This document shows positions 249-32,400 of a stretch of DNA of 32,400 bases, piece by piece. The stretch lies in the IMG/VR virus record IMGVR_UViG_3300043544_000301, positions 1-32,400 of that record, one strand, 5' to 3'. The position numbers and the translations under genes were made by a program. Every line of letters starts with the position of its first letter. The first letter of the stretch is position 1. This DNA comes from a virus. The notes beneath the pieces were generated by a model that had not been told where the DNA came from, did not search any database, and worked only from the letters and a program-made list of their open reading frames with translations.

Positions 249-322
249 ACTACCTCTTGCCGAAACTCACGGATCCGGCAGTTAAAAATATCTACGTTGT
301 TGTAGCGCACAATTGTAGGCAT
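1..322 (-). CDS. Large tail protein, N-terminal part (continues at right window end)
   Basis: This is the 5' part of a gene cut by the window edge. The ATG at 322 directly follows the TAA of the tape-measure-like gene (TAAATG), so the two are translationally coupled. The protein begins MPTIVRYNNVDIFNCRIREF and runs off the left edge in frame. Joined with the right end through the terminal repeat it gives one protein of about 675 residues. I recognise no domain in this piece. Its place immediately after the tape-measure-like gene is where distal tail or baseplate proteins of siphoviruses are usually encoded, so a tail-tip or minor tail role is inferred from position only. Confidence 0.85.
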   Translation of the reverse strand, partial: MPTIVRYNNVDIFNCRIREFRQEVVYDDSGTDYLYTKFFIAVEGIVGAHEHSPGTWLLNEQTGEPVNRNTAQKRLEDIFIALREPRKRLQLVVREVRVENGQVVIED

Positions 323-1342
323 TTATAGGACTCCCGGACGCCGTTTAGGTGGAGGTGCAGGTCGCCAATGGGCCGGTGGATTTTGATTGCGTAGGACTTG
401 CTTGAGAGCCTCAACGATTGGATGTAATGGCTGTTGTGCTGGCGTTGTCTCTTTGGTTGCTTCACCAAAAAGATATGTGTAGATGCCTGAAACAGCATTC
501 AAAATGTCCGCAACAAAAGTAACAAGTTTCATCATGGCTACACGAAATTGAGATGCCAACTGATGACCAATAATTCGCAAGTCTCTCGTGTTGTCCAGCA
601 ATTCACGATAGGTTACGAGCTCACGTCTCCATTGTGGAGTTAAAGCAGCGGCAACCGCCATTCGATCCCTCCGCCCATAAACCTCCAGGATGCTGCGCAT
701 GCCAGCGACTGCGGGAGACACGTCTGCAAATTGATCGAAAATGCTCATGAGACGCGCCCCCGCCTTTTCTGCAGCCCCAGCCACCCATTGAAAAGTTTTA
801 ACGACCAAAAAACCGGCGCCGGCAATTAGGCCTAACACACGAAGCACAGGCCAAAACGCCGCTCCAATTTGTGCTGTTGCCAGGATACTTCCACCAACAT
901 TCGCATCACCAGTTGCGCGTTGTGGTTGTCTTATGGGGGCAGCTTGTCTTGCGCCATAGCCACGAAACAGAGGCCGCGGCTGCGCTGCGATTTGAACAAC
1001 ACGCCTAGTCCCTATTCCAAGTAGCGGAGGGACTGAACGCGGTTGTTCTTGCGTGTATTGTTGTGTGTGTTCCTCAACGCGTTGAATCCCTTCAAGTGTA
1101 TCGTGCGAAACTTCTTTGACCTCTTCAATGTCATCTGTAAGATCGCGTTGTCGTGCTGCGATATCAGCAAGCTGAGAGCTGAGTGACTGACCCAAACCAA
1201 CATTTTGTGCTAGCTCCGTAAGGCGCAAAGGCTCCCCCACCGTTTGTCCTCGGCCCGTGCCGAGCACATTGCGAGTCCTGCCAAGTCGTTCAATCCCACT
1301 TCGCACTTGCTTTAGGATGGAGGCAAATAGTCGCGCAATCAT
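323..1342 (-). CDS. Putative short tail tape-measure / tail-associated protein
   Basis: The 339-residue protein has a helical, charged N-terminal region (about residues 60-100, rich in Glu, Asp, Gln and Arg), a Pro/Arg/Ala-rich linker, a hydrophobic stretch (about 160-190) that could insert in a membrane, more helices, and a basic Pro-rich C-terminus. It follows the two overlapping tail-chaperone frames and precedes the large tail protein. That is the canonical position of the tape measure protein, which sets tail length and enters the host membrane. It would be unusually short: most tape measures exceed 600 residues. The ATG overlaps the upstream stop (ATGA). No tape-measure repeat is visible, so the call rests on order plus the hydrophobic segment. 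Confidence 0.55.
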   Translation of the reverse strand: MIARLFASILKQVRSGIERLGRTRNVLGTGRGQTVGEPLRLTELAQNVGLGQSLSSQLADIAARQRDLTDDIEEVKEVSHDTLEGIQRVEEHTQQYTQEQPRSVPPLLGIGTRRVVQIAAQPRPLFRGYGARQAAPIRQPQRATGDANVGGSILATAQIGAAFWPVLRVLGLIAGAGFLVVKTFQWVAGAAEKAGARLMSIFDQFADVSPAVAGMRSILEVYGRRDRMAVAAALTPQWRRELVTYRELLDNTRDLRIIGHQLASQFRVAMMKLVTFVADILNAVSGIYTYLFGEATKETTPAQQPLHPIVEALKQVLRNQNPPAHWRPAPPPKRRPGVL

Positions 1343-1665
1343 TTGTAGAGCTCATTCCGAGCGCGGTACAGCTCATACTGTAGTTTCGCTAACTCCGGAT
1401 CTTCTAATATCGCCTCAAAAAATTGTTGAGGGATCTCTCCTAAAGCCATTGAAATCCCCAGAAGCACGGGCCATGCACGCAAGTAAGCAATCTCGGTTTC
1501 CATGAGGTGGCATGCCACTATGACGCTTGGATCGTTTCTCGGGGCATTGGGGAGGTCCCACACCCAATCGCCGCAGAGGCATGCAGCTCTAATCCACGGA
1601 GCACTTTTTTTTTCAATTGATCCAAATGCTCTAAGAAGGACATAAAAACGCCAATAACTTCCCAT
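1339..1665 (-). CDS. Tail assembly chaperone, -1 frame extension (T-like part)
   Basis: This frame overlaps the preceding 145-residue gene by 148 bases and ends in an ATGA overlap with the tape-measure-like gene. Its only early ATG (at 1665) has no Shine-Dalgarno sequence and lies where the upstream frame is clearly coding. The sensible reading is that ribosomes shift -1 on a run of nine A in the mRNA (1613-1605) and continue here for 88 codons. That gives a fusion of about 205 residues beside the 145-residue product. In lambda-like phages the G and GT tail chaperones arise this way just before the tape measure gene. The extension is helical and ends in a Glu/Leu-rich tail. A separate gene or a homopolymer sequencing error are the alternatives. 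Confidence 0.65.
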   Translation of the reverse strand: MGSYWRFYVLLRAFGSIEKKSAPWIRAACLCGDWVWDLPNAPRNDPSVIVACHLMETEIAYLRAWPVLLGISMALGEIPQQFFEAILEDPELAKLQYELYRARNELYK

Positions 1666-1957: not shown

Positions 1958-3397
1958 CTAGAGGGCCGCAGAACCGTCTGGCATTGATGGAGGGGTGTTG
2001 CGGAACATTGGATTTTGGAGCGTTTCCTCATCGTCTGATGGCGCTCCTAAACCTGTCGCATCCCGCAGGTCTTGTGCACGGATCCGCAAGCCCATGTCGA
2101 AGGCGGTTCTAATCGCGTGGAGACGTTCCTCGATGTTGGGCTTCTCGACCTCAATCACAAACCTAAAGTAGGATGGGTCGAGAGTGGGAAAATTCCACAT
2201 TACAAGACGACGGACGAGTTGATCTGTTAATGTCTCTGCTAAATTGGCGGCATCATATTTAACGATTTGCAGGAAGGTGTCTAAATGAATGCTCGCCAGA
2301 TTCGATCCAAGTCCTGTAGCGTGCGCTTCTGTGGTGAGTGTTTGTCCTAGAATGTAGCGCTTTATCTGATGCCCGAAATATTCAATCAAAATATTTTTCA
2401 GCACTTCAGCGCCTGCCATAGACGGCTCGATGCGTTCGACGCCGTAAATAGCACCGTCAGCGCCCGGCGGTCTAGGCACAAGTAAAATGTTCTTACCTGT
2501 GCCCACCCGTTGACTTGCCGCCTTAAGTGTTTCTTCTCTAGCGCTCGGATTCCCCGCTGGATAATACCACAACTCAATCCCGAACGCTGAACGTTCCAAG
2601 AATTCCATTAACCAGCGTAAAGCTTCTTGCTTCTGATACCAGCACCAGTAAACGCGCGTGCGAATGCCCACCCCAAAAATGCGATCTGCAGTCACGCCGT
2701 CTTCGTATTCGCCATCTTCAATCAAATGTCGATGAATAATGACCAGATCACGCTTTTCACGTGGTGGAAAATATGCTAATCCTCGATGTGTGATAGCAAT
2801 GTGTTGACTATTTTCCTCTTTCCATTGCCGTACCTTTTCTGAGAGCCCTGCACCGACTCCGATAAGAATGCCCCACTCTTCTAGACTTGGAAGTCCCAGA
2901 GGAGAATCGATGCGCCAAACAAGCTTATCGCCGTGTATCGGCATCCACGAGCGAATTCCAACGCGTTTTTGATTGTCTACCCAAATCCATTGATATTCAT
3001 TGGCTACAGCATATCGGCCGTACCAAATTGCTGACATAAGGACATCACGCATTTGTGTGAACCGCGGCACACGCTTGATAATGCGCGTTACGACATCCGC
3101 GGCAGCTTTGTATTCGGGATCTTTAGTCTCAACTTCTATGTGCCAATCGAGAAGTGCTGTTGCGCGTTGACGCAGCTCCACGCATTCCATGATCGTAGGA
3201 TCATAGCGCATAAAACGAGCGTGGGCCGCTGCCTGTCGCAACGCTTCGTCAGAAGGCCGATATACTCGTACCGTTCCACCTGTGACAAGACCAACGAACG
3301 TGATGGCGTGAGGGACAAGAGGTTGCCCGTTCCCGGGCGGCATCCCGGGGATTAGCGTTACGGTTCCATTTTCGACGAGGTATAGTGGGTCATGCAT
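1958..3397 (-). CDS. Portal protein, Mu gp29-like (DUF935 family)
   Basis: The portal forms the dodecameric DNA gate at one head vertex. The best family marker is the segment around residues 341-403, with IKRYILGQTLTT, then GLGS-LASIH and a long helix ending in LVRRLVMWNFP. This closely follows the pattern of Mu gp29-like portals. Length (479 residues) fits the family. I chose the ATG at 3397, which overlaps the upstream TGA as TGATG; a TTG at 3424 would add nine residues. Oddly the gene does not sit next to the terminase but about 5 kb downstream, between a neck/tail gene and the tail chaperone. Confidence 0.82.
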   Translation of the reverse strand: MHDPLYLVENGTVTLIPGMPPGNGQPLVPHAITFVGLVTGGTVRVYRPSDEALRQAAAHARFMRYDPTIMECVELRQRATALLDWHIEVETKDPEYKAAADVVTRIIKRVPRFTQMRDVLMSAIWYGRYAVANEYQWIWVDNQKRVGIRSWMPIHGDKLVWRIDSPLGLPSLEEWGILIGVGAGLSEKVRQWKEENSQHIAITHRGLAYFPPREKRDLVIIHRHLIEDGEYEDGVTADRIFGVGIRTRVYWCWYQKQEALRWLMEFLERSAFGIELWYYPAGNPSAREETLKAASQRVGTGKNILLVPRPPGADGAIYGVERIEPSMAGAEVLKNILIEYFGHQIKRYILGQTLTTEAHATGLGSNLASIHLDTFLQIVKYDAANLAETLTDQLVRRLVMWNFPTLDPSYFRFVIEVEKPNIEERLHAIRTAFDMGLRIRAQDLRDATGLGAPSDDEETLQNPMFRNTPPSMPDGSAAL

Positions 3398-3915
3398 CAG
3401 GTGAATGACTTGTATAGCACCCAAGCAGAATCAATAAATTTGGGATAGCAATCGAAAGTAATAACCATAATCGAAGGCCGAGACCCTTTGTTAATTTCAA
3501 TGGGTTCTCGGGGTACGGCTCTCGGGAATTCCCAATCCTGGATTCCCTGTTTTTGAAAGTCTAACACTAAGCGATAGGCAAGTCCATCACTAAAAACAAG
3601 CAAACCTGGACCCGGAACAATCCCAGTATTGTGCCCTTGTATCGAGCTCAGACGTTTCGCGATTGCATCAGCAACAGTAGCATCCCACTTCGTCAATTCA
3701 AGCTGGACAATCGCCCGCTCACCATGATAAATGATTTCTGTTGGGGGTCCGGCATCCCCACCCCACTCGTCTGTGTGAACCTCTTCCCAATAGGCCTCCG
3801 TTCTGATGCGCGCGCCGTCACGGGTATAGCCCAATACTTGCAATTGGGCATTGGAACACCCTTCCGGACCAATGCGAATCAGTGCTGGCCCAGCGACATG
3901 GACTGCTAACGGCAT
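3397..3915 (-). CDS. Putative neck or tail tube structural protein
   Basis: The 172-residue protein starts MPLAVHVAGPALIRIG and is rich in beta-prone stretches such as RAIVQLELTKWD and YRLVLDFQK, with few helices. That suits a tail-tube or head-tail joining protein. It lies between the head-tail adaptor and the portal, with only six bases between the upstream stop and its ATG, and its stop overlaps the portal start. I do not recognise a specific family. The tail tube protein is otherwise unassigned in this genome, which makes it a reasonable candidate. Confidence 0.5.
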   Translation of the reverse strand: MPLAVHVAGPALIRIGPEGCSNAQLQVLGYTRDGARIRTEAYWEEVHTDEWGGDAGPPTEIIYHGERAIVQLELTKWDATVADAIAKRLSSIQGHNTGIVPGPGLLVFSDGLAYRLVLDFQKQGIQDWEFPRAVPREPIEINKGSRPSIMVITFDCYPKFIDSAWVLYKSFT

Positions 3916-10306: not shown

Positions 10307-10529
10307 TTCCGACAGAAATCGTTAATAGACCTGCTATCGCTGATGCAAGCCATATTAAAGTATTTACTTTTGCCGACAACCCAACACGACCGTCACCCCA
10401 AACTTCCTTTTCTAAGCGAGATAGTCGTTTGCAGACTGACGGAAACATTCCATTTAATTCAGCTATTTGTATTCTCAGATCATCAATTTTTTCTTCAATT
10501 CGTTGTAGTTTCTCAAGGTCACTACTCAT
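10278..10529 (-). CDS. Holin-like protein (coiled coil plus one membrane helix)
   Basis: An 83-residue protein with a heptad-like N-terminus (residues 4-42: LEKLQRIEEKIDDLRIQIAE and RLSRLEKEVWGDG), then one hydrophobic helix (about 56-77, NTLIWLASAIAGLLTISVG). This layout, including the KEVWGDGRVGL hinge, resembles XhlA-type accessory holins, which insert in the inner membrane and help release the lysin. It overlaps the protease gene by ATGA and so is coupled to it. A different membrane function is possible. Confidence 0.65.
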   Translation of the reverse strand: MSSDLEKLQRIEEKIDDLRIQIAELNGMFPSVCKRLSRLEKEVWGDGRVGLSAKVNTLIWLASAIAGLLTISVGNVIRTALGF

Positions 10530-11302
10530 TCTGGACCCTCCGGATCAACGACAACACGGATAGCCCATCCGTCAGTCCAGACAGGATCGCGAAAGTAGCT
10601 TTCGGGAATAATCGCAAAGCCGCCTTTTCCCCACTTATCTCCCCAACTGTTGACAATTTTTATCCCCCAAACATCTCCTTTCCGAGCTAGCCCAACGGCA
10701 CACATAGCATGCCCACCGGCACGACCGACTCGCTCAGGAATCCACCCGTCGGGCCCTGGGTTAAAATTCGGCCCGATCAAAATGCCAACATTAACCCCAA
10801 ATCCTAATTGAATTGCACTTGCAATGTGATCAAACGCGGGGCAGTCCCAAGCCTCAAGAACCCGAAATCGCTTTGCGTCTTCTTCCCACTCTTTAGGCCA
10901 TCGATGAGGTTGCCATTCAAGATGACCTATTAATGTTGCTCGACACACACCGCGTTTTTCTAACTCACGAATGGCATCCACTAATGTAGACCCGGCATCT
11001 CTGCCACCATTGATTCGTCCATAAAGATTGCCAGCGGATAATTCCACATATGGCAGACCCGCCGCTGCCCTCAACATGTGAAGAGCCTGCACACTTGCAA
11101 ATGCATTACAAGCCCCTGTGTTGCCTTGATCAAGAACCCGATTGATAAAATGACTCCAGTCGCATTGAACCCATTGTGCTCGCGGAATCAACCGAGCTGG
11201 GCCGCGCTCGCCAAAAATCGGATAGACCGTACCCGGGGGTACAACTCTCGGTAAACAACCAAGAGTCCTTTCCACCCCAGCAATCAATGCCTTTACGGCC
11301 AT
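10526..11302 (-). CDS. Papain-family (C1) cysteine protease, candidate lysin
   Basis: The 258-residue protein keeps all key positions of papain-like proteases: oxyanion Gln59 in DQGNTGACNAF, catalytic Cys65, His198 in GGHAMCAVG, and Asn218 in VNSWGDKWGKGGF. The usual Trp after the catalytic Cys is Asn here. There is no obvious signal peptide; the N-terminus has a short proregion-like segment. It is coupled to a holin-like gene and follows a secreted protein gene. No lysozyme, amidase or transglycosylase was recognised anywhere in the window, so this enzyme may take the lysin role by cutting envelope proteins or peptide bridges. That role is inference from context. Confidence 0.85.
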   Translation of the reverse strand: MAVKALIAGVERTLGCLPRVVPPGTVYPIFGERGPARLIPRAQWVQCDWSHFINRVLDQGNTGACNAFASVQALHMLRAAAGLPYVELSAGNLYGRINGGRDAGSTLVDAIRELEKRGVCRATLIGHLEWQPHRWPKEWEEDAKRFRVLEAWDCPAFDHIASAIQLGFGVNVGILIGPNFNPGPDGWIPERVGRAGGHAMCAVGLARKGDVWGIKIVNSWGDKWGKGGFAIIPESYFRDPVWTDGWAIRVVVDPEGPE

Positions 11303-12091: not shown

Positions 12092-12278
12092 TGCCTAAAG
12101 CTTTCTCAAGATCCGCCGCCCAAGGCTTAACACCAGCAGCAAAAATTTGATACAACACATAAATAAGATCCGCCATTTCCTTGGCGATTCGCAGCGCCTC
12201 GATGGGAGTAATGCGCCCGTCATCTAACGCCGCCCGAATTTGTAATACAATCTCTCTGAGCTCTTTTACGATGTCCAT
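12075..12278 (-). CDS. Small conserved-looking helical protein, unknown function
   Basis: The ATG at 12278 has a clear ribosome site (AAAGGAGA) seven bases upstream, preferred to a GTG at 12302. The 67-residue product is MDIVKELREIVLQIRAALDD and onwards: helical, acidic and amphipathic, with a modestly hydrophobic middle (ALRIAKEMADLIYVLYQIFA) that is too charged for a typical membrane helix. It overlaps both the regulator gene before it and the secreted protein gene after it. I do not recognise the family. Position at the head of the lysis genes is the only hint. Confidence 0.65.
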   Translation of the reverse strand: MDIVKELREIVLQIRAALDDGRITPIEALRIAKEMADLIYVLYQIFAAGVKPWAADLEKALGSENND

Positions 12279-12505
12279 AGTTGTCTCCTTTCTGATTCGC
12301 ACAGTTTGCAGCTACCAATAACCAGAGCACCACAAGATGAGCAACGTCGTCTAGGCTGCGCTAGCATATATCGCGGCCGTGGGCGCTTAAACCACCGTAT
12401 TACTGTGGCTTTCCCAACGCCAAGAATCTCTCCAACCTGCCGAATCGGCAAGCCTCCACGAGTGCGAAGAGCCCATGCGCGAACACGCAGCCACTCTGGG
12501 TGCAT
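12266..12505 (-). CDS. Small HTH transcription regulator with zinc ribbon
   Basis: The 79-residue protein has a helix-turn-helix at about residues 18-42 (LPIRQVGEILGVGKATVIRW), followed by basic RPRPRY and a two-CxxC zinc ribbon (CSSCGALVIGSCKLC, residues 55-69). It is first of the lysis/packaging operon, with ribosome site GGAGAGGTG before the ATG. A near-palindromic AT-rich element and a 19-nt box lie just upstream, so it may regulate its own promoter or act as late activator. Target and sign of regulation are unknown. Confidence 0.75.
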   Translation of the reverse strand: MHPEWLRVRAWALRTRGGLPIRQVGEILGVGKATVIRWFKRPRPRYMLAQPRRRCSSCGALVIGSCKLCESERRQLWTS

Positions 12506-12516
12506 ATTATCACCTC

Positions 12517-12563
12517 TCCAATATTATAATAATATGAGAGCTAGACTATAAATGATACCACAA
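12517..12563 (-). promoter_or_regulatory. Putative late promoter/operator of lysis-packaging operon
   Basis: TTGTGGTATCATTTATAGT (12563-12545, minus strand) matches the box before the virion operon at 18 of 19 bases. It is followed by an AT-rich near-palindrome (ATATTATAATAATAT, 12521-12535) flanked by short CTC/GAG arms, which holds TATAAT on the minus strand (12528-12523) and also on the plus strand (12525-12530). The arrangement could serve both the regulator gene and the divergent plus-strand gene. Transcription from this -10 would start very close to the ribosome site. Confidence 0.5.
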
Positions 12564-12580
12564 CTGGCGAGACTCTAGCC

Positions 12581-12829
12581 ATGAATTCCATGACCCTAGT
12601 CGTCAAGCTCCAGAAAAGCCTTCGACTGACGCTGTTAGAAGCCTTACGACTAACTTCTAATCTTCACCTTTTTGACTGCGAAAACTGCAAATGCCAACCT
12701 CCAGAAGAGGCCAGTAAGAGCTCTAAAATCCCTGTTGTCATAAGCGACGATTGCGTCTGCGTCCCCCTCGACAAACTGGCTGACTTTTCTTACGAAATTC
12801 AAAAGGCCATCGCTGGCGAATATCTCTAA
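12581..12829 (+). CDS. Probable small plus-strand protein, unknown function
   Basis: This is the only plus-strand reading frame not shadowing a minus-strand gene. The 82-residue product has a plausible composition: an N-terminal Leu-rich helix (KLQKSLRLTLLEALRLTSNL), a Cys cluster FDCENCKCQPPEE that could bind metal, a beta-like VVISDDCVCVPLDKL, and an acidic helical end. No good Shine-Dalgarno precedes either ATG (12581 or 12590). It diverges from the regulator gene and ends just before the minus-strand terminator. No family recognised. It could be noncoding, but the frame is open for the whole gap. Confidence 0.5.
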   Translation: MNSMTLVVKLQKSLRLTLLEALRLTSNLHLFDCENCKCQPPEEASKSSKIPVVISDDCVCVPLDKLADFSYEIQKAIAGEYL

Positions 12830-12839
12830 CTTAAATCAT

Positions 12840-12872
12840 AAAAAAGTTGTGATCTTTCGGGACCCACACAAC
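12840..12872 (-). terminator. Rho-independent terminator of replication operon
   Basis: On the minus strand a 6-bp stem GTTGTG/CACAAC (12872-12867 with 12851-12846), with possible further pairing inside, is followed directly by six T (12845-12840). It lies downstream of the primase-helicase gene and the left iteron cluster and would stop transcripts before the plus-strand gene. Confidence 0.65.
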
Positions 12873-12927
12873 AATCTCCTCAGCCTTACACCCCTCACTC
12901 GTGGTACACCTGCAGTGGGCACCCGTG

Positions 12928-13073
12928 CCCCGCCAGAGTATATGACGGATGACGGTTATGACGGTTGATGACGGTTGAAGTTTTTCAACCGTCACTCAAC
13001 GTAAGTCCTTGTGCTACCAACACTTACATCCACTTATGACGGTTGTGACGGTTATTTCCGGGGTACAAAAAAA
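12928..13073. repeat. Left iteron cluster (candidate origin or partition site)
   Basis: Six direct copies of TGACGGTT or TGACGGAT (starting at 12943, 12950, 12959, 12969, 13037 and 13046) and one inverted copy (12987-12994) lie within about 110 bases. TGACGGTTG and CAACCGTCA (12969-12994) form a 9-bp hairpin. GTAAGT and ACTTAC (near 13001-13027) form a second stem. An inverted copy of the whole element lies at 17191-17336, so the pair brackets the replication genes. The stretch 12830-13181 otherwise holds only the terminator and a short GC hairpin near 12918; I see no gene. Confidence 0.8.
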
Positions 13074-13181
13074 TGGGCAGAATGGAGCAATGAAACCAGA
13101 AGCACACTTCTAAGGCTAATTCTTCCACATCAAGCGTTCCTGTGGTGTTTTATCAAAAGGGGGGGATGGAGGAAGGACGAT

Positions 13182-15566
13182 TCAGTAATCTGCGAATTCT
13201 TCGTCAGGAAAAGACTCTTCATTAGAAAAGTCATCATGATTCATCCCTATTTTTGGAATAGAATACCTCTTTGCTATCCGCTCTATGTCACTACGATAAT
13301 ATATTCTCGACGTAGCTATTCTTTCGGGTTTAATACCAAACCTTCTCAAATATCTCCCCACCGACTCCGGAGAAATGGGCCTGCCGTGGCGATATGTAGC
13401 CCACGGTGATTCCTCTAGCACGGCCAAACGTTCTGCTAATTCACGGACAGTTAACTTTTCATCAGAGTCAAACACCTCTAAGACGTCAAGCAGTAACCGC
13501 ACAGCTATCTCCTCGTTATCTTCAGTTTGTTCGCTTCCACTAAGAGCTATCGCGGCCTTCCGGGCTTCTGTTGGCCAGTTGCCGCCAGCAATGTCAGCAA
13601 TGCACAACAAAGGTCGCCAGTTATCAGCGGCCCTGTCATCCAAACACTCAGGTACCTCTGGAAAACGCTCCGCAAGTGCTGCTTTAATTTCGTCTGTTGC
13701 CACCGCTGTGTAAATTTTTCGAGATAACACATCTAAATAAGCCTTTGCTTGTGGAGTTAACCGTTCGATTGTTTCATTTTTCGCCTTACGTATCATGCGA
13801 ATCGTAATGGATCGGTCACTCCACGTGCTTGGTTGGTTACCAATAGAAGCGATCGCCTTCGCACACCATGTTGAAAACATACCAACATCATCAGTGCCAT
13901 CTGCCTTTTTTAAGACCCGCGCCACATTAGCACTTTCTCGATCGTGACCAGAATTAATAATGCCACGCAACTCTTCGTTATCTTTAGCAAACGTGTCTGC
14001 TTCGTCGATCAACAGCGTCAAAGGACCATATTTTTCTATGACTCGATAAACGGCCGCTGGGCTGATATTACTTGCAAATACCCCACGTGCAACTAAGCGA
14101 AACAGAACCGTTAACAATGTGGTTTTCCCACAGCGGCGTGTTGGACTGACTATGCTCAGCATCGGAGCAATTGAGCTGCTGTTATAAACGTAGGTCCATG
14201 CCGTCCATAAAGTGATTGCTACAGCGTCTTCGTGTTTCAGGATCACATAACGACGAATCGCGTTATAAACTTCACAAAGCACATCATCTAACACAACTGG
14301 CTCTGGCCATATGTCTGGCCAAGGCCGAACAACACTTTTCGATAGACCACAAGCACCATTACTCAGTGGATCCTCCATAACTTCATCTGCCATTCTTGGT
14401 AATTCTTTATCACAAAGATCGATTATCTTCTTGACATCGACGTTTCTCCCGAGTTTACGTGCAACTTCTTTTGCAAACTCCTTTCTTGCTCGGCCTCGGT
14501 TAACATTTATCTCCTCACGATAAATCTCTTCATCGCCCACCCACGCAATAACTATCGGATTCTTCCTCCCAGCTCTAAAGTGCACAGAGAATCTAAGCTC
14601 TGATTGTGTTTTAGTTTCAGTGGCGGGTTTATGTTGCTCTTCTGTTTGTGTTGATTTAGGACGCAATGGTTCAACTTGCTGAGCAATTTCTAGAAGCAGG
14701 CGACCTATGTCTTTCTTTGTAGCCCCCTCACTAATTGGCAACGCGCATCGATTCGGAGAGTCGATAATGTCGGCTAAATCGCCCCCTGGAGGTAATTCTT
14801 TCGCATAATTTGCAAGCTTTATGATTCGAATGTCTGTTACTCCAGCCGCCAGGCATAACTGAGCTACAGTTTCAGCGTAACGCTCTCCAGCTTCGTCGTT
14901 GTCAGGCAAGATAACGACTTTTCGCCCACGTAAAGGGCTCCAGTCCGTTAGATGAGCGGCGCTAGCTCCTCCAGCTGATGTTGTGCTCACGAGCCCGCAA
15001 TCCCACCCAGCGTCAGCCGCTTTTTCACCCTCCATGATAAAGACAGGTGCGTCTTTGTGGTAAAGTATTCCCGGTAGCGCGTACAGTGGCCGAGGAGTTG
15101 GCATGCCTGCGAGCCGCCAGCTGCCGTCGTAGAGTGCAATTGGGCGAATTATTTTGCCGTCTGGTTTATCCCAGCGGAGAACATATCCCACGTCATTGCC
15201 ATTAGCATCAGAATACATCCATTCATAATCGTGACGCCGGCCAATCTGTTTCGCCCAAGCTTCCATTGCTTCTTTAGCTGTTGCATAAGCGGTTTTATTA
15301 GCGTGCTCTTTCTCGTTGGCGCGACACGCTTCTCTGCCTGTATTCACTGGCATGAGATCTTTCATCTGTAAGCCAAGAACGGCAACGATATCTTCGACTT
15401 TGCACCCAGCGAAACAACGCATTAACACTCGCCCATTGTGGCCTTCTCGAATTGATAGGCTAGGGACTCTATCGTCATGCGCAGGACAGTGCGCTTTCCA
15501 TCCAACGCCACACTTCTTGGGGCGACAACCCATGCTCTCTAAGGCGTTCAGAACATGTTCTAACAT
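13182..15566 (-). CDS. Primase-helicase fusion (CHC2 zinc, TOPRIM, DUF3631-like ATPase)
   Basis: The 794-residue protein combines a DnaG-type zinc finger (C27, H30, C51, C55), a TOPRIM domain (EGEK at 179-182, DNDEAG at 222-227), a charged linker (about 300-330), and an AAA ATPase with Walker A SPTRRCGKTTLL (474-485) and Walker B LLIDEAD (518-524). The region after about 640 (ADNWRPLLCIADIAGGNWP) matches DUF3631-type helicases of plasmids and phages, and the C-terminus suggests a winged-helix (RPISPESVGRYLRRFGI). It would unwind the origin and make primers for the host polymerase. It overlaps the small zinc-finger gene upstream by seven bases. The second catalytic segment of a full DnaG fold is not evident. 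Confidence 0.88.
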   Translation of the reverse strand: MLEHVLNALESMGCRPKKCGVGWKAHCPAHDDRVPSLSIREGHNGRVLMRCFAGCKVEDIVAVLGLQMKDLMPVNTGREACRANEKEHANKTAYATAKEAMEAWAKQIGRRHDYEWMYSDANGNDVGYVLRWDKPDGKIIRPIALYDGSWRLAGMPTPRPLYALPGILYHKDAPVFIMEGEKAADAGWDCGLVSTTSAGGASAAHLTDWSPLRGRKVVILPDNDEAGERYAETVAQLCLAAGVTDIRIIKLANYAKELPPGGDLADIIDSPNRCALPISEGATKKDIGRLLLEIAQQVEPLRPKSTQTEEQHKPATETKTQSELRFSVHFRAGRKNPIVIAWVGDEEIYREEINVNRGRARKEFAKEVARKLGRNVDVKKIIDLCDKELPRMADEVMEDPLSNGACGLSKSVVRPWPDIWPEPVVLDDVLCEVYNAIRRYVILKHEDAVAITLWTAWTYVYNSSSIAPMLSIVSPTRRCGKTTLLTVLFRLVARGVFASNISPAAVYRVIEKYGPLTLLIDEADTFAKDNEELRGIINSGHDRESANVARVLKKADGTDDVGMFSTWCAKAIASIGNQPSTWSDRSITIRMIRKAKNETIERLTPQAKAYLDVLSRKIYTAVATDEIKAALAERFPEVPECLDDRAADNWRPLLCIADIAGGNWPTEARKAAIALSGSEQTEDNEEIAVRLLLDVLEVFDSDEKLTVRELAERLAVLEESPWATYRHGRPISPESVGRYLRRFGIKPERIATSRIYYRSDIERIAKRYSIPKIGMNHDDFSNEESFPDEEFADY

Positions 15567-15883
15567 TGCTTTCCACTATGTTTATTGCGCACTTTGCGAA
15601 TGTACGAGAAGACCTCTTTCCACTTAAGTCTCCAGCACTTTGTGTACAAAGCATCCCAATCTAAACCCAACTTAGTTAAGATCAATGTTGTGCGACAACC
15701 TTTAGTGCAAAATATGTGCACGTGACTGCCATCTTCTGATAATCGCACAACAAGTGTGGGCCGCCAGCGATGGTGGCGATTGTAATGATTAGGGCACAAT
15801 GCCATCCAAGTCCCATCGACTTCTTGAGGATACAATCGCTTAGCTTTTAGTCTGTTTAAAACTAGGATTAGCGGTGGATTCAT
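15560..15883 (-). CDS. Small primase-type zinc finger protein
   Basis: The 107-residue protein keeps the CHC2-like pattern seen at the start of the downstream primase: CPNH (C-x2-H), a beta hairpin, then CTKGC (C-x3-C) and a LTKLGLDWDAL helix. The C-terminus is basic (KVRNKHSGKQC). It is a stand-alone zinc-binding unit overlapping the primase-helicase start. Primase zinc domains read template DNA, so this one may add template recognition to the primase or bind the nearby iterons. Both roles are inference. Confidence 0.65.
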   Translation of the reverse strand: MNPPLILVLNRLKAKRLYPQEVDGTWMALCPNHYNRHHRWRPTLVVRLSEDGSHVHIFCTKGCRTTLILTKLGLDWDALYTKCWRLKWKEVFSYIRKVRNKHSGKQC

Positions 15884-15886
15884 TGT

Positions 15887-16186
15887 TTACTTCTTCCTCT
15901 TGTTCTTCTTCTTGGGGCTTTGTTCAGCGGTAGTTTCAGGTTGCAATCCCATGGCCGCCAGAATTCGATTAGCTAGCCACACCTGACTTTCCGAGGACAA
16001 CTTGTTCACGTGCTCAATTAAATAAATCCATTCTTCTTTGCCGCTGCGGCTTATCAAAAAGCCCATGCGATCTCTGAGGCGGGGCCAGTCTCGAGCTTCC
16101 GCCCACTTAAGCACTACATCGCGAAAGTATTCAAGGAATTCTGTGTGATTATTTTCACGAGACATTGCTTGTCGCACTCGCAGCAT
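15887..16186 (-). CDS. Small helical protein with Lys-rich tail, unknown
   Basis: The 99-residue protein is helical and Trp/Arg/Glu-rich (FLEYFRDVVLKWAEARDWPR) and ends in a highly basic run, PKKKNKRKK, typical of nucleic-acid contacts. An internal ATG at 16165 is a possible alternative start; neither has a strong ribosome site. It overlaps the gene before it by 32 bases. It lies in the replication block, which suggests a DNA-binding accessory, but I do not recognise the family. Confidence 0.6.
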   Translation of the reverse strand: MLRVRQAMSRENNHTEFLEYFRDVVLKWAEARDWPRLRDRMGFLISRSGKEEWIYLIEHVNKLSSESQVWLANRILAAMGLQPETTAEQSPKKKNKRKK

Positions 16187-16559
16187 GAGTTGCCCTAATT
16201 TCGCTTCTTACTCGGTGCTCTAACTCTGCTAACAGTGACGCAATGCGTTTAATTACAAGCTCAGTAGCGTGCTTTTCAAAAGCGACTCGCTCTTCGCTTG
16301 GTGCATCAATGTGCATTTCAGACAGGAAGCGACTGATTGTCGCACGAATAGACGATCCATTTCTTAAAGCATCAAAGAAAATAACTTCGCAAGATATCCC
16401 GGGTCCTAACAGCGAAAACTCGATGTTTTCAACACTGTCTTCCAGCCCAAGAAGGATCTTGTGATACGATCTTATAACTGACGTAGCCTCGTGCTTAGGA
16501 AGACGTACCACCCAACCCCACCAACAATACAACCAATCAGAAAGGTGTGACACTGACAT
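16155..16559 (-). CDS. Hypothetical protein in replication block
   Basis: The 134-residue protein starts MSVSHLSDWLYCWWGWVVRL behind a good ribosome site (AGAGGAGGA). The Trp-rich start is followed by helical segments; the C-terminal half is a likely coiled coil (RVAFEKHATELVIKRIASLL, AELEHRVRSEIRA). No known motif is visible. It lies between the RusA gene and the Lys-rich small gene in the same direction, so it is probably co-expressed with replication functions. Confidence 0.6.
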   Translation of the reverse strand: MSVSHLSDWLYCWWGWVVRLPKHEATSVIRSYHKILLGLEDSVENIEFSLLGPGISCEVIFFDALRNGSSIRATISRFLSEMHIDAPSEERVAFEKHATELVIKRIASLLAELEHRVRSEIRATHAASATSNVS

Positions 16560-16587
16560 TGCGTGGTCCTCCTCTATCTAAAAGCGC

Positions 16588-17067
16588 CTACCCGTCAACA
16601 AGCTTGGCGACAACAGTAACACCAGGACGACCGTTGATGTTTACATACTTTTTGACTGCGTGTAAGCCCACAATTTGAGAATCGTCTTGAATGAGAACGC
16701 CTGTAATAGCATCTAAAACAGATCGAATTAATTTGTCTAAATCAGGCCGCCGCGTTACAAACGAAGGGGCATCATATTTCAACCCCTTGGCGCCAGGTTC
16801 CATGGATATGAAATGAGATTTAGGACGAGGGAACCGAAAAGAAGTGTGCACAACGACAGGGCCAGTCCATGGCAAATTTGGAGCGGAAAATTTAGAAGCC
16901 GCGAACCTAATAGCGGCCTGCCATTCCACAAGCCGTGGAAAGGGAAGAAATTTGACCCCTAGCTGTCCAGCCTTCTTCTTAATCGGGATCACTCGGAATG
17001 ACCCCTTAGGGACTGGAATGCCAGGCACAGAAAAGCGCACAAACTTTATAAACTCACTGTCGTACAT
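16588..17067 (-). CDS. rusA: RusA-family Holliday junction resolvase
   Basis: The 159-residue protein begins with FSVPGIPVPKGSFRVIP, the typical RusA opening strand, and carries the family's acidic core: TRRPDLDKLIRSVLDAITG (D109, D111, K112, D119) and IQDDSQIVG (D128, D129). RusA dimers cut four-way junctions formed during phage recombination and replication, which clears branched DNA before packaging. It is first gene of the replication block, directly downstream of the right iteron cluster, with ribosome site AGGAAA before the ATG. Length fits the family. Confidence 0.87.
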   Translation of the reverse strand: MYDSEFIKFVRFSVPGIPVPKGSFRVIPIKKKAGQLGVKFLPFPRLVEWQAAIRFAASKFSAPNLPWTGPVVVHTSFRFPRPKSHFISMEPGAKGLKYDAPSFVTRRPDLDKLIRSVLDAITGVLIQDDSQIVGLHAVKKYVNINGRPGVTVVAKLVDG

Positions 17068-17190
17068 ATTCTATTTCCTGGCGACTGGTCGGTTCTGTAA
17101 TTATTATTAATAGGGCTTGCACACCCCACCACAGTATGGCGGCGATGGACTAGATAGATACATTCATTCCTGTGACATCCACCACCCACT

Positions 17191-17336
17191 TTTTTCTATA
17201 CCCGGGAAATAACCGTCACAACCGTCATAACTCGTCGCAAGTCCTTTGGGCGCAATCACTTGCGTTGAATGACGGTTGCAAAACCTCAACCGTCATCAAC
17301 CGTCACAACCGTCATCCGTCATATACTTAAGCGGGG
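17191..17336. repeat. Right iteron cluster, inverted copy of the left one
   Basis: Read on the minus strand this matches the left cluster without gaps over about 138 bases at roughly 80% identity or more. It has the same seven TGACGG units, the same 9-bp hairpin TGACGGTTG/CAACCGTCA, and a second stem CGCAAGT/ACTTGCG at the same place as GTAAGT/ACTTAC on the left. It separates the small zinc-finger gene from rusA. The rest of the 17068-17395 gap contains only an AT-rich patch near 17100; no gene is seen. Confidence 0.8.
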
Positions 17337-17395
17337 TATTCAGTAACACCATCGTGGCATTTGACATTGTTGATCTCCAAGGTGTGGTACAAGCG

Positions 17396-17644
17396 CTAAT
17401 GTCCCAGGCTCGCGTCGGCCCTGGGTTTATCGCCAGGGCAACGTTTGGGGCAGTGCTTACTACAACAAAGTAGCCAATGTCCATCAGATAAATCCACTAT
17501 GTGTAGAACAGAAAGGCTATTTTGCCCCAGAGGACATTGTGCCGTCCACTCACGTTTCACCGGGTCCCACTGAGGGTTACATCCATGGCGTTCCATGGCT
17601 TCAAGGAGCTTTTCTAAAGGTGTTTTGCTTGCAGATTTTGACAT
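17396..17644 (-). CDS. Small degenerate primase-type zinc finger protein
   Basis: The ATG at 17644 has a good ribosome site (AAAAGGAAA) and is preferred to a TTG six bases upstream. The 82-residue product resembles the N-terminus of the primase: LEKLLEAMERHGCNPQWD, then REWTAQCPLGQ, a beta hairpin, and CCSKHC (C-x3-C). The His of the first C-x2-H pair is replaced by Gly (CPLG), and additional Cys follow (KRCPG), so metal binding may differ. It is the last gene before the right iteron cluster. Confidence 0.65.
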   Translation of the reverse strand: MSKSASKTPLEKLLEAMERHGCNPQWDPVKREWTAQCPLGQNSLSVLHIVDLSDGHWLLCCSKHCPKRCPGDKPRADASLGH

Positions 17645-17717
17645 CGACAAATTTCCTTTTCTTTTGTGACCAGTTAAGGACCAATCCGTTATCTTCCGGG
17701 GCAGTCAGCTTCTTGTG

Positions 17718-23261: not shown

Positions 23262-24938
23262 TCACCACTTCCCAATTGGACATTTACTTGAAGCCCACCT
23301 AGCTTTCCGATAAATCGGACAACCACACTTAACGCAAACGCTGTCTTGTCTCCATTCACAAAGGGCACAAATTTCTACCCGCCTCCGATACACATCATCA
23401 GGCGCTGTGGCGGCACCTGTGGCAATATGCTGCGCCGCGCTTACTGCGAAATTTCGCAGCTTCTCCCACCAACCAGGCAGCTGTGCCTGCTTATAAACGG
23501 GATCGCGTGAAATTATGGCGTAGCCATTGCCCTCATTTTCTAGAGTGATAACCACGTAGGGCGAACCTGTGCTAGACAACCATTCACGGAGGCACCGAAG
23601 CACTGTTTTTTCCTCTCGCACGCCATGAGTGCGAGTGCGCGGATCATAGACATGTACCGAGATAGTATCGGCAAATCCCAGATTGCAAATCACCACGGTT
23701 GGCCAGACATGGAGTTGTTCTCGGATAATCTCAAACATGGGGCCAATAGGCTGTGGTGGATCCCAAATCAAGACAGCCTGCCCATTCTCTGGTTGAGGGA
23801 GTTTGCTGAACGACTGCATGACGACGTTTGGCCCCTTGAGATCGTTATTCATAGTCGCAATACGAGCGTTGGGGAATTTGTCCAACCAGCGTCTGTCAAG
23901 AGTGACGATGGTTAGTTGTTTTTCGCTAATGTTCAATTCACCAAGCTTAGCAGCAACATGATCGATCTCGGGCCGATGGCGGTCAGGACACGATCCACAT
24001 CCACGACGGCGCTCCCCTTTTTCCTCCTGGCTTGACGGTGAAGGGATCGGAGGGGCATAGGGCTGATCGAGGTTTTGTAACAGATTATGAAACTCCTCTT
24101 CTGTCATGAGATGTGGAGAGACTTCGCAAACTTCCCCATCCGAAGCCACTTCTGGCACAGTGTAGCCTTGAACAAAGTGACGCTTGATCCGCTCAATATC
24201 CCAATTCAGTAATTTAAACCAAAGCAGATAGTTTCGCACCTTGTCATGGAGATACAGAGGATAGCGCACCTGCAATTGATGGAAGTTGTGCCAATATTTC
24301 AGGCCCGGGAAGCACATAACCCGCCCGCCGGCTCGACGGAATGCTTCGTGGAAACAGATCTCTTCTCCACCGAACCCACGGGCCGCAGGGTGAAATCCCC
24401 CAGCCACAAAGAAGTCTTTCCTCCTCACCAAGAAAATCCCAAACCCACTTCCTGGAATTTCAAACGGTTCGCCTTTCTCAGCTCGGGGATCATATCGCCA
24501 AATCCCCAGCATGCCATAACGGAAAACAGGTTCAAAGTGCGTGGCCGGATTACTGCGTAGGTCATCATAGACTTTAACGCCGTGAAACAGAATTGAGTCG
24601 TTGCCGGCGTAGTCAATTGCCTGCTGCAGGTTGTTTACTAAATCGGGCGGGAATAGCACATGGCAATCAAAGCATAACACCCAATCGTTTTGAGCTTCCA
24701 AAATCGCTTTGTTGCGGGCTGGAGATGTTCCGATAGCGTAATCGAACGGGACATATCTTACGCCTGCCTTTTTGCAGAAATCACTAATTTTCTCGCTTTC
24801 TGGAGACCCTGGAGCATTATCGACAACGACAATGTCGGCATCGACTAGTCCATGGTGAAGTCGGAGAGATTGAATTGTTTCAATTACTCGAAGATCACGA
24901 TACGTGGCAGTGACAAAGCTGACGTTCATAGTAGGCAT
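23262..24938 (-). CDS. GT-A glycosyltransferase with C-terminal zinc module
   Basis: The 558-residue protein opens with a GT-A nucleotide-binding fold (NVSFVTATYRDLRVIETIQS, VDADIVVVDNAPGS). Its metal motif reads FDCHVLF (D-x-H rather than D-x-D), and the acceptor site carries RGFGGEEICFHEAFRRAGG. A D-x-H plus GGE pattern is known from polypeptide GalNAc transferases and relatives. A middle domain (about 320-480) of unknown function follows. The C-terminus (about 520-558) has CALC, CVKCGCP and KCPIGKW, a Cys cluster likely to bind zinc and seen in other phage tail-linked proteins. Ribosome site AAGGGAGGT. It lies directly after the Thr-rich protein genes. Confidence 0.8.
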   Translation of the reverse strand: MPTMNVSFVTATYRDLRVIETIQSLRLHHGLVDADIVVVDNAPGSPESEKISDFCKKAGVRYVPFDYAIGTSPARNKAILEAQNDWVLCFDCHVLFPPDLVNNLQQAIDYAGNDSILFHGVKVYDDLRSNPATHFEPVFRYGMLGIWRYDPRAEKGEPFEIPGSGFGIFLVRRKDFFVAGGFHPAARGFGGEEICFHEAFRRAGGRVMCFPGLKYWHNFHQLQVRYPLYLHDKVRNYLLWFKLLNWDIERIKRHFVQGYTVPEVASDGEVCEVSPHLMTEEEFHNLLQNLDQPYAPPIPSPSSQEEKGERRRGCGSCPDRHRPEIDHVAAKLGELNISEKQLTIVTLDRRWLDKFPNARIATMNNDLKGPNVVMQSFSKLPQPENGQAVLIWDPPQPIGPMFEIIREQLHVWPTVVICNLGFADTISVHVYDPRTRTHGVREEKTVLRCLREWLSSTGSPYVVITLENEGNGYAIISRDPVYKQAQLPGWWEKLRNFAVSAAQHIATGAATAPDDVYRRRVEICALCEWRQDSVCVKCGCPIYRKARWASSKCPIGKW

Positions 24939-30450: not shown

Positions 30451-32400
30451 GCCATTACAGGCCCAATACGCCGACTCACGTTTAAGGCAAGCCCCTTATA
30501 TTGTAATTGCTCTGCTGGTGGTGTGAGATAAGGCCGCACCGTCACGGGCAGAGGCGCTTGTGGTGGCGGTGCTCTGTCAAGAGCCCATACAGCTTTTAGC
30601 TTTACACGATAAATATACGTGTCTCCTGTTGGTGATAGCGCCGGAGGATAAACGCGAATTTTCGGACGCCCCACTACCCATCCAGTAATAGTGATTTGTG
30701 CGTTACTCGGGCCGACTTTTGCGACAAAATCTTCGATTGCAGGTATTTCTGGCATCTGTCCGTGTCGTTCGCAGTCGTATTCGAGAATACGATAACACGC
30801 CATCGGTCCTACATTGATCACAACATGAGAAGGACCTCCAAAATCTGAAAGTCGCAAAGCCTGTCTTGCAGAGTTGTAAACGTACGTATCTGAAATGCGG
30901 GTATATGTGTATAAACCGTACTTGTGCTGGTTATCGTAGCGACCCAGGATGTAGTCAGGCCATAAGCCCTCGTATGGATCAAACTCCTCACTAGTGCGAT
31001 ATACAACAGCTTCCACTGGAAAGTCAGGCTTGTTTTGTTGTGTGTTTTCTTGAGTATTGTCACTAGATTCTGTTTGCGCGTTATCTTGCGGTCGTGCCTG
31101 AAATCCCTCTGGAAGATCTTCTGTGGGAAATCCTTTTTCGAATGTGTAGGGATATTGGAGGTAGTTTATGAATGGATCGAGAATTGCAGGATTGCGATAC
31201 TGTATTCGGGGCATTGCGGTCAAACCAAATGGATCGCCTTTCCAGCTAATGTAGGGACTATATAACTCGTTACCAAATGGATATGGTAAATCATGCCCCT
31301 CTGGAAGCTTGGGAATATCATCCTTATCCTTTTCAATGGCCTCCAATTCTTTTCCACAAGCAAATAAGTGACCGCGAATGAAATTCGTCAGGTTGCCATC
31401 TACATCTTCTGGCAACGTTTCCACGTCCATGTTCAACGTTACTCGCGACTCCTGTCCAAATTCCTCTATGATTTCACAGTTTTGGATTATCCATGAGTAG
31501 CCGTATCGCGCAGCTACACGATCATCACGAAAATGCAGAAACGCATCTGCTAGCTGCACTGCTCTGCGAATCAGCATGTAACGCGGAATGGCGGGTGGTG
31601 CTGTGAGTGTGATTTGAAGCCCAACAATACAAGTGGCTCCGTCCTGCACTCGACGTCTGTGTGCGATGTTCATTGTTGTGCATGGCCAGGGTGCCGCATC
31701 TTTGATTTGACGGTCAGTGATTTCATAATCAAGCCGTAAGCCGTCTTCGCGATACGAAAATCGCGCACTTTCTCGGCGAAAACCAGGCTCTAGCGGAGGC
31801 CAGCAATAAAAACGGGCAACGCGCGCAGACAATTTGAAAGGACGTGACTGAACGAGGGTCCCGCGAATAGTGCGCGTAATTTGGAAGTTAGTGTCAAATG
31901 ATTCGTCAATAGCCCATCTGTTGCTCAGTATCAGCGGCGAGTGTTCGTCTTCTGGCCAATCGTGAGTTGCAGCTCGTTGGTGTGAGTCAGTGGGAGCTTG
32001 AAGAGCACAACTTTCTACCTGCCACGAAATTGTGCACAAACGGCTGCCTATCACAGAAAGAATTCGTAATTCTTTGGGTTGGGGGCCATTGCGAAAGTCT
32101 CTGACAACATATTCATCAGTAGCGTCAGCTGGGTGGATATCGAGAATCGGGCGATCTTCAATCACAACTTGCCCATTTTCGACCCTTACTTCGCGCACCA
32201 CCAACTGCAAACGTTTCCGTGGTTCACGAAGTGCAATGAAAATATCCTCCAATCGTTTTTGTGCCGTGTTTCTGTTGACAGGCTCTCCGTTTTGCTCATT
32301 CAATAGCCACGTTCCCGGAGAATGCTCGTGCGCACCAACGATTCCCTCAACGGCAATAAAAAACTTTGTGTAGAGGTAGTCAGTGCCTGAATCATCATAT
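30447..32400 (-). CDS. Large tail protein, main part (5' end at left window edge)
   Basis: This reading frame runs off the right end and continues in the left 322 bases through the terminal repeat; the full protein is about 675 residues, starting at the ATG at 322. An internal Met at 32303 is not the true start. The protein is mixed alpha/beta with many charged turns; a Gln/Asn/Thr-rich linker (AQTESSDNTQENTQQNKPDF) separates two larger parts. No known domain is recognised. Following the tape-measure-like gene and preceding the fibre-like genes, it is probably a distal tail or baseplate hub component. Its stop overlaps the next start by ATGA. Confidence 0.78.
   Translation of the reverse strand, partial: YDDSGTDYLYTKFFIAVEGIVGAHEHSPGTWLLNEQNGEPVNRNTAQKRLEDIFIALREPRKRLQLVVREVRVENGQVVIEDRPILDIHPADATDEYVVRDFRNGPQPKELRILSVIGSRLCTISWQVESCALQAPTDSHQRAATHDWPEDEHSPLILSNRWAIDESFDTNFQITRTIRGTLVQSRPFKLSARVARFYCWPPLEPGFRRESARFSYREDGLRLDYEITDRQIKDAAPWPCTTMNIAHRRRVQDGATCIVGLQITLTAPPAIPRYMLIRRAVQLADAFLHFRDDRVAARYGYSWIIQNCEIIEEFGQESRVTLNMDVETLPEDVDGNLTNFIRGHLFACGKELEAIEKDKDDIPKLPEGHDLPYPFGNELYSPYISWKGDPFGLTAMPRIQYRNPAILDPFINYLQYPYTFEKGFPTEDLPEGFQARPQDNAQTESSDNTQENTQQNKPDFPVEAVVYRTSEEFDPYEGLWPDYILGRYDNQHKYGLYTYTRISDTYVYNSARQALRLSDFGGPSHVVINVGPMACYRILEYDCERHGQMPEIPAIEDFVAKVGPSNAQITITGWVVGRPKIRVYPPALSPTGDTYIYRVKLKAVWALDRAPPPQAPLPVTVRPYLTPPAEQLQYKGLALNVSRRIGPVMA
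32153..32400. repeat. Right copy of terminal direct repeat
   Basis: Same 248 bases as the left end except for three substitutions. It closes the circle and lets the split tail gene be read through. A fixed terminal repeat, as in some linear phages, would normally be identical in both copies. Confidence 0.93.

Follow-up and report, generated by a model that had tools for sequence, protein, structure and literature searches.

Gene content of the replication module

IMG/VR virus record IMGVR_UViG_3300043544_000301, analysed over its positions 1 to 32,400 (hereafter the window), carries a replication module of five genes between two inverted clusters of short repeats (iterons), here termed cluster 1 and cluster 2. 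All five genes lie on the minus strand and encode RusA, two unknown proteins, a zinc-domain protein and a primase-helicase. The same gene set had been named in a preliminary description made from the sequence alone, and domain scans agree with it, assigning RusA to PF05866. Cluster 1 is flanked by convergent genes with stop codons at 12829 and 13182, and cluster 2 lies between co-directional genes, 124 bp ahead of the rusA start codon. The two largest intergenic gaps in the chosen gene set (352 and 328 bp) hold the clusters.

The start of the record (1-248) is repeated at its end (32153-32400) as a 248-bp direct repeat with 245/248 identical positions, and the three mismatches are unlike an exact assembly overlap. 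Matches to the nearest relative continue across the end/start junction. Because of this near-identical terminal repeat, the record is probably a whole genome, with exactly two clusters.

An inverted pair of iteron clusters

The inverted pair was found by repeat search and consists of two arms of 146 nt each, aligned without gaps and with 4,117 nt between them (Table 1). These had been described as collinear, gapless reverse complements; their coordinates and the absence of gaps hold, but identity between cluster 1 and the reverse complement of cluster 2 is 83% (121/146 positions) and thus not perfect. The best ungapped inverted 146-mer within 12500-17700 has these 121 matches, compared with 65-74 in ten shuffles, and similarity between the arms ends at the 146-bp borders. 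The octamer TGACGGTT occurs in 12 exact copies in the 32.4-kb genome (0.89 expected; shuffle maximum, 4), all 12 of them inside the two clusters. The copies differ at 25 positions and all 55 unit positions are free of differences; a distribution as extreme as this arose in none of 200,000 random placements. As the units are invariant while the remainder of the copies diverges, they are under selection in both clusters.

Each cluster comprises five exact direct TGACGGTT units, a further direct unit that is truncated (TGACGGA) and merges into the one that follows, and a single inverted unit, which is exact. The earlier count of six direct and one inverted units is correct if the truncated one is included. 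With CCGTCA cores read forward, the unit layout is >9>48<20>10>9>7> in both clusters. The two stems reported per cluster were also recovered: a unit and the inverted unit form a hairpin in both copies, and a second stem carries one compensatory change between them. Single-strand folding of the two copies gave modest z-scores (-2.0 and -2.4). No Rfam family matched the window at the gathering score, and a literature text search for TGACGGTT returned unrelated matches only.

Table 1 Features of the cluster-bracketed replication module and of the arms at its ends
Feature	Position	Strand	Remarks
Cluster 1, proposed half-origin in the usual place	12928..13073	+	108 bp beyond the primase-helicase stop codon; five exact direct units, one truncated, one inverted
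Cluster 1, outer direct units	12942..12976	+	Truncated TGACGGA, then three TGACGGTT
Cluster 1, hairpin	12969..12994	+	Unit and inverted unit, 10-nt loop
Cluster 1, second stem	13001..13027	+	GTAAGT..ACTTAC; compensatory change in cluster 2 (GCAAGT..ACTTGC)
Cluster 1, inner tandem unit pair	13037..13053	+	
Primase-helicase, proposed initiator	13182..15566	-	794 aa; zinc/Toprim primase part and DUF3631 AAA+ part with predicted C-terminal winged helix
Zinc-domain protein, primase type, free-standing	15560..15883	-	107 aa
Unknown protein	15887..16186	-	99 aa; enclosed module
Unknown protein	16155..16559	-	134 aa; enclosed module
RusA Holliday junction resolvase	16588..17067	-	PF05866; first gene of the enclosed module
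Cluster 2, proposed inverted partner half-origin	17191..17336	-	Upstream of rusA
Cluster 2, inner tandem unit pair	17211..17227	-	
Cluster 2, hairpin	17270..17295	-	Unit and inverted unit, 10-nt loop
Cluster 2, outer direct units	17288..17322	-	Three TGACGGTT, one truncated

Iterons at the 3' end of DUF3631 genes

The helicase part of the primase-helicase belongs to the DUF3631 family (116 bits against a cut-off of 24). Another name of DUF3631 is RepAM, under which it is known to initiate replication in pMEA300-type elements (PMC3218068). An alignment scan of IMG/VR for DUF3631 yielded 51 loci, and for each locus the strongest 7-mer cluster containing both unit orientations was sought, with no unit presupposed. 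Among 47 usable loci, this cluster fell between -150 and +600 of the DUF3631 match end in 26 (3.4 expected; P 5e-15, a value that overstates independence, given partial relatedness among the loci). The gene 3' end, the seat of the cluster in these 26 loci, is also the place of cluster 1. The unit varies among DUF3631 loci (CCGTCACA, CCGCTACC, CCTCTACA, CCGGCACA, CGAAACAA and others) and the spacing is retained in many of them: a tandem pair, 42-44 bp, a hairpin unit, a loop and the mirror image. Of 53 loci, 8 matched a strict symmetric template near the gene end; the remaining 570 kb gave 2 matches and shuffles gave none. An arm almost like that of the window, with the layout >9>44<23>11>, is present in locus L205 and in the Streptomyces plasmid L174. 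Phipami28 (L126), the closest primase homologue, is without TGACGGTT and has another unit in the same inverted layout inside the gene 3' end.

We note that many DUF3631 loci (L177-L226; for example, L180:9055-9183 and L197:3709-3879) have their iterons within coding sequence, at the 3' end of the helicase gene. Iterons inside DUF3631 helicase genes translate to repetitive tails such as VADVAD and ATSATSAT.

The primase-helicase as candidate initiator

The primase part of the 794-amino-acid protein matches phrog_6088, with a weak Toprim match. For the last 375 residues, modelled with AlphaFold together with 35 relatives, an AAA+ core and a C-terminal winged helix are predicted at a predicted local distance difference test (pLDDT) value of 90. 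Foldseek matches of this model in the PDB include MCM, African swine fever PrimPol, the helicase part of NrS-1 and SaPI PriRep1 (7pds). Modelled alone, the C-terminal part reached a pLDDT of 78 and matched winged helices at weak E-values, plasmid TubR weakly among them. The zinc proteins and the primase-helicase had been put forward for binding tests; the candidate binder can be narrowed to the C-terminal winged-helix part of the primase-helicase.

The weak likeness to TubR, and the fact that repeat clusters are typical of partition or segregation sites, would fit a role of the clusters in segregation. Protein scans recognised no partition gene beside the clusters, and we give this idea almost no weight.

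Primase-type zinc domains occur in three proteins of the genome: the N-terminus of the primase-helicase (13182-15566(-)) and two free-standing proteins (15560-15883(-) and 17396-17650(-)). Both free-standing proteins align with the primase N-terminus at ~31% identity, and one of them is encoded directly outside cluster 2.

The same arm beside unrelated replicases

Viral contigs and a collection of ~85,000 species genomes were scanned for the element by pattern. Among the matches listed from the loose pattern scan, most loci were chance- or coding-repeat-like and were left out of use, as were L133-L135, L137, L139-L141, L167 and L172; L056 and L138 are less clear cases. Close inverted arm pairs were found at or near the 3' side of replication genes encoding Prim-Pol (L108, L132 and L055, the last being the same phage type as L127, L128 and L129), and also beside BT4734/VapE (L131) and beside a zinc primase with a DUF5906-like helicase (L136). 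An open reading frame (ORF) of 140 amino acids separates the replication gene from the element in L132. The element lies ~0.7 kb beyond the DnaB gene in L068, near an ArdC-like gene in L138 and directly past a 681-amino-acid ORF in L169.

Arm spacings in the best cases agree within a few bp (L068, >9>46<20>11>11>9>; L108, >8>46<19>11>9>; L132, >9>46<21>10>18>). In most pairs, and in the window too, the arms converge and hold their tandem units on the inner side; L068 and L131 have divergent arms. The tandem-unit pattern marks a single place in the whole records of L108, L055 and L068 and has no match to L136 and L138, which have degenerate units. Spacers between the halves measure ~20 to 320 bp in these pairs and are clearly AT-rich in L108, L136 and L169. 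Unlike these close pairs, the halves of the window stand ~4.1 kb apart with the replication module between them.

The close agreement in unit and spacing between the elements beside Prim-Pol, VapE, DUF5906 and DnaB raises the alternative that the binder of the units is not the replicase but a host protein or another phage protein, such as the helix-turn-helix protein encoded at 12266-12505. Within DUF3631 replicons, however, different loci have different units, in keeping with coevolution of the unit and a phage-encoded binding protein, and we regard a binder other than the replicase as improbable.

Prophage-like loci of isolate genomes (L158, L159, L161-L165, L168, L170 and L173) contain TGACGGTT/TGATGGTT arrays with the same hairpin. 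The array of L168 (3219-3351) lies inside a helix-turn-helix-like ORF (2787-3821). Iterons inside an initiator gene are also a feature of lambda O.

Comparison with the nearest phage relative

The nearest phage is L142 (TerL, 82%; DNA identity of 68-74% over several kb), in which the neighbouring gene at 12581-12829 of the window is matched at the protein level. Just short of cluster 1, similarity to L142 is lost, at 12.3 kb on the DNA level and at 12.8 kb on the protein level. The replication gene of L142 encodes a different protein of 425 amino acids (295-1572(-)), an unrelated ORF with a tandem-repeat middle (TPSGPHTDPI), and the replication module has apparently been exchanged. No clusters were found in the L142 contig, a 23.6-kb fragment, for which reason the far side of the module is not comparable.

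Since similarity ends just before cluster 1 and the replication gene differs in this relative, the clusters could be taken for the terminal inverted repeats that would bound a mobile cassette of replication genes, or for inversion sites, both of which had been suggested. Against this, the outer ends show no target-site duplication and no similarity extends beyond the arms, no recombinase or transposase family was found among the scanned proteins (small ORFs were not all scanned), and the element is present elsewhere as a close pair. We consider both suggestions very unlikely.

Elsewhere in the genome, a papain-family cysteine protease (PF00112) is encoded between the packaging and replication genes (10526-11302(-)), and a family 2 glycosyltransferase has a fused C-terminal DUF6171-like stretch (23262-24938(-)).

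A proposed split iteron origin

We consider it probable that cluster 1 and cluster 2 together make up a single iteron origin of replication, each being one half of it, with the primase-helicase as initiator. An origin of this type serves the self-loading AAA+ initiator helicases (SaPI Rep, P4 alpha and DUF3631/RepAM). That cluster 1 is origin DNA is proposed with good confidence, and for the joint use of the two halves the case is evenly balanced. The inverted pair, selection on the units, the position on the 3' side of the gene and the recurrence of the arm layout in other replicons are features of the DNA; from them we infer origin activity, protein binding, fork direction and joint use of the halves. 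The paired origin already listed in the preliminary description is the best supported of its five options, given the close inverted pairs beside unrelated replicases and the inverted iteron clusters at the 3' end of DUF3631 genes. The layout, for which that description named no phage element of exactly this form, has close analogues, and what stands out is the wide spacing.

Under this proposal, the C-terminal winged helix of the primase-helicase would bind the TGACGGTT units, the AAA+ part would form a ring on each half and melt the DNA, and the fused primase part would start synthesis. In many other phages and plasmids the element forms a single compact block just behind the replication gene and is very probably where DNA replication begins. 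The side-by-side inverted halves of related replicons would place two helicase rings oppositely, for two forks. Cluster 1 would occupy the usual place and cluster 2 would be its inverted partner upstream of the operon, with either one ring loaded per half or the two halves joined as in the looping model of P4 ori and crr. The meaning of the 4.1-kb distance is the least certain step and may involve separate ring loading, looping or an extra autoregulatory role of cluster 2. More tentatively, a recurrent architecture common to phages with unrelated replicases (two units, 44-48 bp, an inverted unit, a loop and at least three units, in an inverted pair) might here have been split into equivalent half-origins at the module ends, each loading one helicase ring, so that forks would start kilobases apart or after looping.

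Several observations weigh against a two-part origin served by the primase-helicase. No second, distant cluster was found in any of the 26 DUF3631 relatives with a cluster (several loci are short), so the split form rests on one genome, and about half of the DUF3631 loci are without a strong cluster at the gene end. Nearly the same unit stands beside unrelated replicases, where a host protein or another phage protein could be the binder. The winged helix of DUF3631 has weak homology to that of Prim-Pol replicases (hhalign probability, 36), and the GC skew of the genome is governed by coding strand and uninformative on where replication starts.

The single cluster place per genome that DUF3631 relatives need would also suit a scheme in which only cluster 1 serves as origin, with cluster 2 (between co-directional genes, 124 bp ahead of the rusA start codon) as an operator through which the initiator represses its own synthesis. 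Inverted iterons act in this way at the rep promoters of many plasmids. Cluster 2 nevertheless exceeds the needs of an operator, being a full arm with hairpin and second stem and with 55/55 unit positions kept, and a scan for promoter-like sites found none at either cluster (sigma-70 types only, which may not be those of the host). We think it rather unlikely that cluster 1 is the sole origin and cluster 2 such an operator. An operator at both clusters was rejected, because the genes on either side of cluster 1 converge on it with their stop codons and an operator would have little use there.

Satellite phage P4 (ori1/crr and alpha) resembles the window in having a Toprim primase-helicase with a winged helix (predicted in the window) and two iteron sites some kilobases apart, crr bearing the same iterons as ori. 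The P4 sites differ in make-up and are not equal inverted copies, unlike the equivalent inverted clusters of the window. An arrangement of the P4 kind, with cluster 1 as origin and cluster 2 as a distant required site like crr, joined to it by initiator looping, is to be doubted on that ground, even though P4 alpha, too, combines Toprim primase and helicase parts, and its winged helix binds the origin (PMC4234260).

Other known systems share parts of the proposed split origin. In SaPI Rep, it is the C-terminal domain that works on the iterons, which follow the rep gene directly (PMC7581432). SaPI Rep/PriRep1 and SCCmec Cch2, which are self-loading AAA+ initiators, likewise combine an initiator helicase bearing a C-terminal DNA-binding domain (predicted in the window) with iterons directly downstream, but have one compact origin, whereas the window has two inverted clusters ~4.1 kb apart and a helicase of the DUF3631 family. 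RepAM (DUF3631) replicons of actinobacterial elements such as pMEA300, and DUF3631 phages, share with the window the helicase family, the inverted iterons at the gene 3' end and the spacing; they differ from it in having mostly other units, one cluster per element and a primase that is usually separate. The origin stem-loop of pRN1 and Bordetella phage BIP-1 (PrimPol-SF3) is located 3' of the replication gene (PMC4234260), a position shared with the window but without iterons. The BIP-1 stem-loop was rejected as a homologue, since the BIP-1 region has no TGACGGTT units. RSF1010 oriV likewise has iterons and two stem-loop initiation sites, ssiA and ssiB, which lie on opposite strands; unlike the window, it relies on three separate proteins, with stem-loops distinct from the iterons and a short distance between them.

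These findings offer a simple sequence rule for recognising origins in many uncultured phages and plasmids. The feature to look for is a set of inverted iterons on, or close to, the 3' side of the gene for the initiator helicase, conserved in spacing but not in the unit. Because a single arm layout, and often almost the same unit, accompanies replicases of unrelated families, the question arises of what reads the arm. The window may also serve as a natural test of whether two helicase rings are required at one spot or are allowed to load kilobases apart.

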